Part shown: positions 55,925 to 57,379 of the stretch, piece after piece
How positions within the stretch are numbered: position 1 is the stretch's first letter
How the letters are laid out: each line of letters begins with the position of its first letter
DNA from: Caldalkalibacillus uzonensis
GTDB taxonomy: Bacteria > Bacillota > Bacilli > Caldalkalibacillales > Caldalkalibacillaceae
Direction: 5' to 3'
DNA length: 64,000 nucleotides
NCBI RefSeq assembly: GCF_030814135.1
Contig: NZ_JAUSUQ010000003.1
Location: 124,001 to 188,000, forward strand
Translations under genes and position numbers: made by a program
The notes under the pieces: generated by a model
Told to the model about the DNA's origin: nothing
Database searches by the model: none
What the model saw: the letters and a program-made list of their open reading frames with translations, nothing else

Positions 55925-56311
55925 TTAGTCATTTTCGGTGACCATTTTTTCATATTCTTCAGCGGACATGAGCTTATCCAGTTCACTGGTATCTGACATT
56001 TCCACGACAATCATCCACCCATCACCATATGGATCAGAGTTGACCAGTTCCGGTTCATCTTCCAGGCTTTCGTTGACTTCTAATACTTTTCCGCTCACAG
56101 GTGCATATAACTCCGAAACCGTTTTAACAGATTCTACACTGCCAAAAGGAGAATCCTGTTCCACTTCATCATCCACTTCGGGCAGTTCTACAAAAACAAT
56201 ATCACCTAATTCAGATTGAGCAAAATCAGTAATTCCTATGTATGCCTTGTTGCCTTCCACGCGAACCCACTCGTGCTCTTCGCTGTATTTCAATTCCTTA
56301 GGTAGGTTCAT
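55925..56311 (-). CDS. gcvH: Glycine cleavage system H protein
   Basis: A 128-residue GcvH of usual length. The lipoyl-attachment Lys lies in [18 protein letters not shown] (about residue 64). [21 protein letters not shown] is the usual start. It carries the aminomethyl group in the glycine cleavage complex and is also used in lipoate distribution. It is 35 bp downstream of the yusI-like gene, an arrangement seen in Bacillus. Confidence 0.95.
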
Positions 56312-56346: not shown

Positions 56347-56709
56347 CTATGTTCCCCAAGTCTCTGCAAATGTTTTCTCCTGAAAGCCAATGGTCACCTT
56401 GTTACCATCTGTCACTATGGGCCGTTTAAGCAGCTTCCCGTTTGAAGACAGAAGTTCCAGTTGTTCCTCTTCGTTCATGCCAGGTAAGTTTTCTTTCAGG
56501 TTTAATTCTTTGTACACTGTACCCCGTGTATTAAAAAATTTGTTTAGTGATTCTCCCGATTGCTGCCACAGCTTGCGCAGCGTTTCCTTGTCCGGGGGAT
56601 CGTTGACAATATGCACCACATGCAAATCATAGCCATGATCTTCAAGCCAAGCCTTGGCTTTACGGCACGATGTTCATTGGGGATAGTGATATATCGTTAC
56701 TTTAGGCAT
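56347..56709 (-). CDS. yusI: ArsC/Spx-family protein (YusI-like) with in-frame TGA at the active-site cysteine codon
   Basis: If TGA at 56676-56674 is read through, the gene encodes 120 residues, the length of YusI-type proteins (about 118). The start reads MPKVTIYHYPQ, then TGA (codon 12), then TSCRKAKAWLEDHGYDL. YusI has YPKCGTCRKA here, so the TGA replaces the first, catalytic Cys of CxxC. The rest of the protein (FFNTRGTVYKELNLKENLPG, LLKRPIVTDGNKVTIGF) is fully conserved. ATG 56709 has GGAGGATCTTG upstream. Read as a separate open frame it would start at TTG 56625, without a ribosome site. Candidates: a selenoprotein (UxxC), a recent nonsense mutation, or a sequencing error. Confidence 0.7.
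56644..56660 (-). other. SECIS-like hairpin downstream of the TGA codon
   Basis: On the minus strand a 7-bp perfect stem (AAGCCAA with TTGGCTT) carries a 3-base loop GGC. The first loop base lies 21 nt after the TGA. Bacterial SECIS elements are usually a short stem just downstream of UGA with a G at the start of the apical loop within roughly 16-37 nt. The match is suggestive but the sequence also encodes conserved residues KAKAWLE, so chance is possible. Confidence 0.4.
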
Positions 56710-56797
56710 CAAGATCCTCCTTTACCAATCGTCCAGTTTACTTTATATAGCCTGTCCAAGTTGAGCCAGTACCAATCAGACACGTTAACCACTCACT

Positions 56798-57379
56798 CTA
56801 CTCCTTGTTACGTCGACGGGAAAACACATTGGCACTGCGTACATACTCCACATCTTTATGCCCAGCCCGGTGGTTGATCACCCTGGCCAAGGCAAAGAAA
56901 TAATCGGACAAGCGGTTCAAATATTTCTGCACCCAAGGATTGATCTTTTCTTTTTCAGCCAATCGCACCGTCTGGCGTTCCGCCCGCCGGATGACCGTTC
57001 TGGCCACATGCAAATAGGCCGCTGCTTTGGTTCCACCCGGGAGAATAAACCGCTCCAGTTCTGGTGCCTCGGCCACATAGGCATCGATGCGCTCCTCCAA
57101 AAAGGTGACCATCTCTTCCGTCACTTTAAATGGATATTTCCGCTCCGCACCTTCTTTTTTGCTTAAGTCACTGCCGCAGTCAAACAACTCATGCTGAATT
57201 TTCTCCAGCTCCTCTCTGATCTGGCGCTCCTCTTCTGGCAGATGGGCAATCGCCACACCCACAAAGCTGTTGGCTTCGTCTACCGTGCCATAAGCTTCCA
57301 CTTTTGCACTGGCCTTGGATACACGGCCACCTACAATACTGGTTTGGCCCTCATCCCCTGTACGCGTATAAATTTTCAT
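56798..57379 (-). CDS. pduO: ATP:cob(I)alamin adenosyltransferase (PduO type)
   Basis: A 193-residue PduO-family protein. N-terminal TRTGDEGQTSIVGGRVSK (5-22, ATP binding), VEAYGTVDEANSFVG (28-42), RTVIRRAERQTVRL (about 131-144) and LNRLSDYFFALAR (about 156-168). It makes adenosylcobalamin from cob(I)alamin. Its start overlaps the PHP phosphatase stop by 4 bp. It fits the cobalamin salvage genes upstream. Confidence 0.94.
   Translation of the reverse strand: MKIYTRTGDEGQTSIVGGRVSKASAKVEAYGTVDEANSFVGVAIAHLPEEERQIREELEKIQHELFDCGSDLSKKEGAERKYPFKVTEEMVTFLEERIDAYVAEAPELERFILPGGTKAAAYLHVARTVIRRAERQTVRLAEKEKINPWVQKYLNRLSDYFFALARVINHRAGHKDVEYVRSANVFSRRRNKE

Follow-up and report, generated by a model that had tools for sequence, protein, structure and literature searches.

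Within the window, the 64,000-nucleotide stretch of DNA that was analysed, a short gene of the ArsC/Spx family lies on the minus strand between a cobalamin adenosyltransferase gene and gcvH. The features of the locus are as follows:

56347..56709, minus strand: yusI-type gene (ArsC/Spx family), 120 amino acids with the TGA read through, stop codon TAG
56674..56676, minus strand: in-frame TGA at codon 12, predicted selenocysteine (motif U-T-S-C)
56644..56660, minus strand: predicted SECIS stem-loop AAGCCAA-GGC-TTGGCTT, loop at nucleotides 21-23 past the TGA
56716..56723, minus strand: Shine-Dalgarno sequence AAAGGAGG, 5' of the ATG at 56709
55925..56311, minus strand: gcvH (glycine cleavage H protein), 35 nt 3' of yusI
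56798..57379, minus strand: PduO-type cobalamin adenosyltransferase (ATR) gene, 5' of yusI

Translation of 56347-56709 on the minus strand begins MPKVTIYHYPQ*TSCRKAKAWLED..., the asterisk marking the sole internal stop, the TGA at codon 12; up to the TAG the product reads MPKVTIYHYPQ*TSCRKAKAWLEDHGYDLHVVHIVNDPPDKETLRKLWQQSGESLNKFFNTRGTVYKELNLKENLPGMNEEEQLELLSSNGKLLKRPIVTDGNKVTIGFQEKTFAETWGT. This TGA occupies the position of the first Cys of the CxxCRKA motif, and with the TGA read as Cys the frame matches Pfam ArsC (PF03960) at 7.8e-24. The translation bears out the initial annotation, which had described a TGA at the catalytic-Cys codon of an otherwise open yusI-like frame, and the ribosome site claimed before its ATG is present upstream. 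All five compared genomes of the order share the arrangement ATR-yusI-gcvH, and the yusI-gcvH pair is retained both in the order and in many Cys-bearing relatives, with a gap before gcvH that is often 50-100 nt. A divergent gcvH-like frame lies 3' of the TGA form in genome G008. Standard annotation would reduce genes of this kind to an 11-residue peptide and a truncated gene.

The window protein falls among YusI-type proteins in trees and belongs to the YusI subfamily by TIGR01617 (arsC_related, Spx/MgsR), whose cut-off it exceeds (103.2 bits against 75.05). Bacillus subtilis YusI and Clostridioides difficile OseR share this subfamily with it, by similarity and tree, as well as the yusI-gcvH pair, but carry Cys in place of Sec and have no SECIS hairpin. 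The nearest solved structure, the putative arsenate reductase 2m46, aligns over residues 4-118 (E 9e-28) and is likewise a Cys form. Spx and MgsR have the fold, the CxxC and the RPI motif in common with the window protein, which stays below the cut-off of the Spx model (76 bits against 123), has Ser at the position of Gly52 and lacks the Spx C-terminal part. Selenoproteins of the ArsC family are already known, namely UxxS reductases and the UxxC ArsC-like proteins of NF041106 (PMC1088965, PMC2398784, PMC13188914). The selenoprotein modelled by NF041106 (ArsC_rel_Se_1) shares with the window protein the ArsC family, a UxxC active site and Sec at the first Cys, but the window protein reaches only 37.4 bits against a cut-off of 85 and goes with YusI (TIGR01617). 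The UxxS arsenate reductase (TIGR00014, glutaredoxin-type) has the same fold with Sec at the same position; it differs in its UGSS motif, in its marine Acidimicrobiales and Verrucomicrobiales loci and in its distant branch, and its model scores the window protein at 69.1 bits, below a cut-off of 106. An "arsenate reductase 2" (cd03032) from an ocean survey (PMC2398784), which also has UxxC, is a possible relative. The YusI subfamily is absent from a 2026 table of 119 selenoprotein families (PMC13188914), and no YusI or Spx selenoprotein was found in the literature searched, which covered a minority of the subscription journals. That literature describes neither a YusI-type Sec form from Bacillota nor the two types of SECIS that go with it nor a fossil element (see below); the form adds a selenoprotein subfamily for the Bacillota.

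The machinery for selenocysteine insertion is complete in the window's genome (G000; 3.88 Mb, 53 contigs). ARAGORN confirms a tRNA-Sec gene (selC) with anticodon TCA at C5:143908-144000, and selB lies about 1 kb from it; selA is found at C5:210742-212106 (590 bits) and selD at C9:182097-183026, where the expected SelD motif contains an in-frame TGA. All four genes for which a search had been suggested at the outset are therefore present. Genome G022, one of the further carriers of a TGA form, has two selD genes, both with an in-frame TGA (G022:C34:224586-225515 and 206824-207738). Selenoproteins had initially been described as uncommon in Bacillales; this does not hold here, where the Sec trait is not rare and SelB exceeds its cut-off in 35 of the 101 genomes sampled from the class. 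Among genomes bearing the TGA form SelB is over cut-off without exception (22/22, comprising seven from the 101-genome sample and 15 others). Given the frequency of 35/101, its presence in seven of seven sampled TGA carriers would arise by chance with a probability of about 4e-4, a value uncorrected for kinship.

Five genomes of the order (G000-G004) allow a closer comparison. G001, of the same genus, has a TGA form with 87% protein identity to G000, and G002, from another family and genus, has one with 61% identity; selA, selB and selD are all over cut-off in these three genomes. At the same codon G003 has TGT and G004 has TGC, and in neither of these two genomes does selA, selB or selD reach its cut-off. 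The G000 and G001 genes have diverged almost to saturation at silent sites (dS about 0.8-1.0), whereas dN downstream of the TGA is about 0.05, giving a dN/dS near 0.06. Such a low dN despite nearly saturated silent sites indicates that the TGA-bearing gene is under purifying selection over its full length, both before and after the TGA. The hairpin core has the same codons in G000 and G001, and even in G002. Most likely Sec is ancestral in this order and was replaced by Cys upon loss of selA and selB.

The comparison was extended to 399 genomes of the class, searched with a motif pattern that leaves silent positions open and so returns TGA and Cys forms alike. Across the Bacillota 22 TGA forms of the protein family were found, 10 in the class and 12 elsewhere in the phylum. 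The recurrence in relatives proposed initially as a check is thus seen in a congener, in another genus and, beyond G001 and G002, at the same codon in 19 further Bacillota genomes. TGA hits of the pattern in G447 and G530 were set aside as chance, as neither frame matches the family and neither genome has SelB. In trees the window protein is nested among Cys-type YusI proteins from Bacilli, and one Bacilli family (G037, G137, G148, and G169) has Sec forms on a branch of their own. The Sec forms do not make up one clade, and at least six Sec/Cys changes are needed on the tree. The AU test rejects a single origin of all Sec forms (p 0.00014), on a tree limited by long branches and 120 columns. 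Four Sec forms (G022, G042, G625, and G675) have lost the second motif Cys and read UxxV or UxxA, which suggests that Sec works there without that resolving Cys. Of the UxxV/UxxA proteins (loci L097, L098, L169, and L173), three lack Cys entirely over the aligned length.

Bacterial SECIS elements are hairpins within the coding region, with an apical loop 16-37 nt after the TGA and a G in the first two loop bases. The 7-bp hairpin that had been reported with a GGC loop 21 nt after the TGA is present as described, and its triloop at nucleotides 21-23 fits this geometry. Taken as a single sequence the hairpin was discarded as evidence, being too weak: 2258 of 20000 random synonymous codings of the peptide equal it (11%), and its folding z-score is -0.64. 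Its significance comes instead from conservation, since within the class the core GCCAAGnCTTGGCT is present in all 10 TGA forms and in 1 of 115 Cys forms among the matches listed (Fisher p = 6e-14, with 0.4% per sequence expected by chance). Three of the 12 TGA forms beyond the class have the same hairpin and nine have another type, the best form of which is GCGAAAGC-GTG-GCTTTCGC, with one compensatory G-C/A-U pair. The pairs of the first type hardly vary, so that the signal there is constancy at silent sites and not covariation. A search of Rfam with the hairpin region gave no match. The sole carrier of GCCAAGnCTTGGCT among the 115 listed Cys forms is G004, whose Cys-type yusI (L182; G004:C106:177862-177893) keeps the exact SECIS hairpin in a genome without selA or selB; in G003 the hairpin is lost. 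As G004 is sel-less and belongs to the order of the window's genome, the likeliest reading of its hairpin is a fossil SECIS, probably left behind after a change of TGA to TGC, although with one sequence chance is possible. With three Sec and two Cys species, and one likely hairpin fossil, the order offers a compact case of Sec/Cys exchange.

Taken together, complete machinery, a TGA and hairpin kept in relatives, and Cys where the machinery is lost make it almost certain that the TGA is read as Sec. The computational basis, namely the machinery, the conserved TGA, the constrained hairpin and selection on both sides of the codon, strongly supports this reading, and the proposal of selenocysteine made initially gains from the sel genes, the recurrent TGA and the consistent presence of SelB in TGA carriers. 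We therefore consider the gene, with a probability of about 0.93, to encode a selenoprotein of the YusI branch with SelB-dependent Sec at codon 12. SelB carrying Sec-tRNA-Sec would bind the hairpin that lies shortly after the TGA, and selenocysteine would be inserted at codon 12. The predicted product is a small thioredoxin-fold protein of the ArsC/Spx family with a U12-x-x-C15 active site, in which Sec would act as the nucleophile and Cys15, the sole Cys, would resolve the selenenylsulfide.

Family membership and neighbouring genes suggest that the product is a Sec-containing thiol/selenol redoxin. It may perhaps serve the lipoyl H protein encoded by the adjacent gcvH, to which the link is positional only. 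A different role for the Sec-containing protein, that of a redox-sensing regulator like OseR or Spx and not a catalyst, is possible but doubtful. Gly52 of Spx touches RNA polymerase, and selenocysteine normally serves catalysis. The Ser at this position and the missing Spx C-terminal part in the window protein, like the use of Sec itself, argue against regulation; the score over the cut-off of TIGR01617, a Spx/MgsR model, argues for it, as does the report that OseR of C. difficile, a member of the YusI subfamily, is an oxygen-responsive repressor (PMC11481553). The same study finds YusI proteins in general to be without Gly52, a further point against a Spx-like regulator, and describes their mode of action as unknown (PMC11481553). 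The expenditure of selenium on the first Cys implies that YusI probably uses that residue for chemistry, and the Sec form offers a handle on YusI function.

Readings without Sec fare far worse. A Cys-type yusI that has recently become a pseudogene, through the single nonsense change raised as an alternative at the outset, would need only the one base that separates TGA from TGC or TGT; it is nonetheless very improbable, being contradicted by the same TGA in 22 genomes of several families, by SelB in every TGA carrier and by the purifying selection (dN/dS near 0.06) after the TGA. Insertion of Trp or Cys by a non-Sec suppressor is scarcely credible, given that the Sec machinery is present, that UGA replaces Cys in company with a hairpin that Cys forms lack, and that TGA is an ordinary stop elsewhere, closing 15 of the 49 long open frames in the window. 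A sequencing or assembly error, conceivable in a draft genome of 53 contigs, is ruled out by independent assemblies of other species with the same TGA and hairpin.

A scan for TGA-interrupted frames covered 1.27 Mb of G000, about a third of the genome, and recovered SelD and YusI together with a disulfide reductase and a peroxiredoxin. The former is an FAD disulfide reductase similar to dihydrolipoyl dehydrogenase and MerA (G000:C1:280195-281580, minus strand; L214:192-1583, minus strand), in which TGA stands for the second Cys of GGTCLNWGC (GGTCLNWG-TGA-MPKK). This TGA and a downstream hairpin are conserved in G002, G037, G137, G148, and G169 at 50-55% identity, and this kind of reductase is absent from the 2026 table of 119 families (PMC13188914). 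The latter is an AhpC-type peroxiredoxin (G000:C9:48395-48934, plus strand; L234:8305-8937) with TGA at the peroxidatic Cys (FTFV-U-PTE), and five other genomes (G137, G148, G169, G487, and G695) share this TGA; in G137 about 3 kb separate the TGA peroxiredoxin from the TGA reductase. Together with SelD, these genes make it unlikely that Sec decoding in G000 is limited to one gene. Formate dehydrogenase was considered as the main Sec client and rejected, as no TGA interrupts the matched part of the best TIGR01591-like hits in the order. Some Bacilli might, as a tentative proposal, possess a connected Sec redox module made up of the CLNWG-U reductase, the peroxiredoxin and the YusI/Spx-type redoxin, with repeated Sec/Cys exchange in the redoxin and at least one fossil SECIS. 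A glycosyltransferase gene (L239:10466-11518, minus strand), whose best match, NF038229, is below cut-off, has an in-frame TGA near codon 48, for which a Sec gene, a pseudogene, and an error are all candidate explanations.
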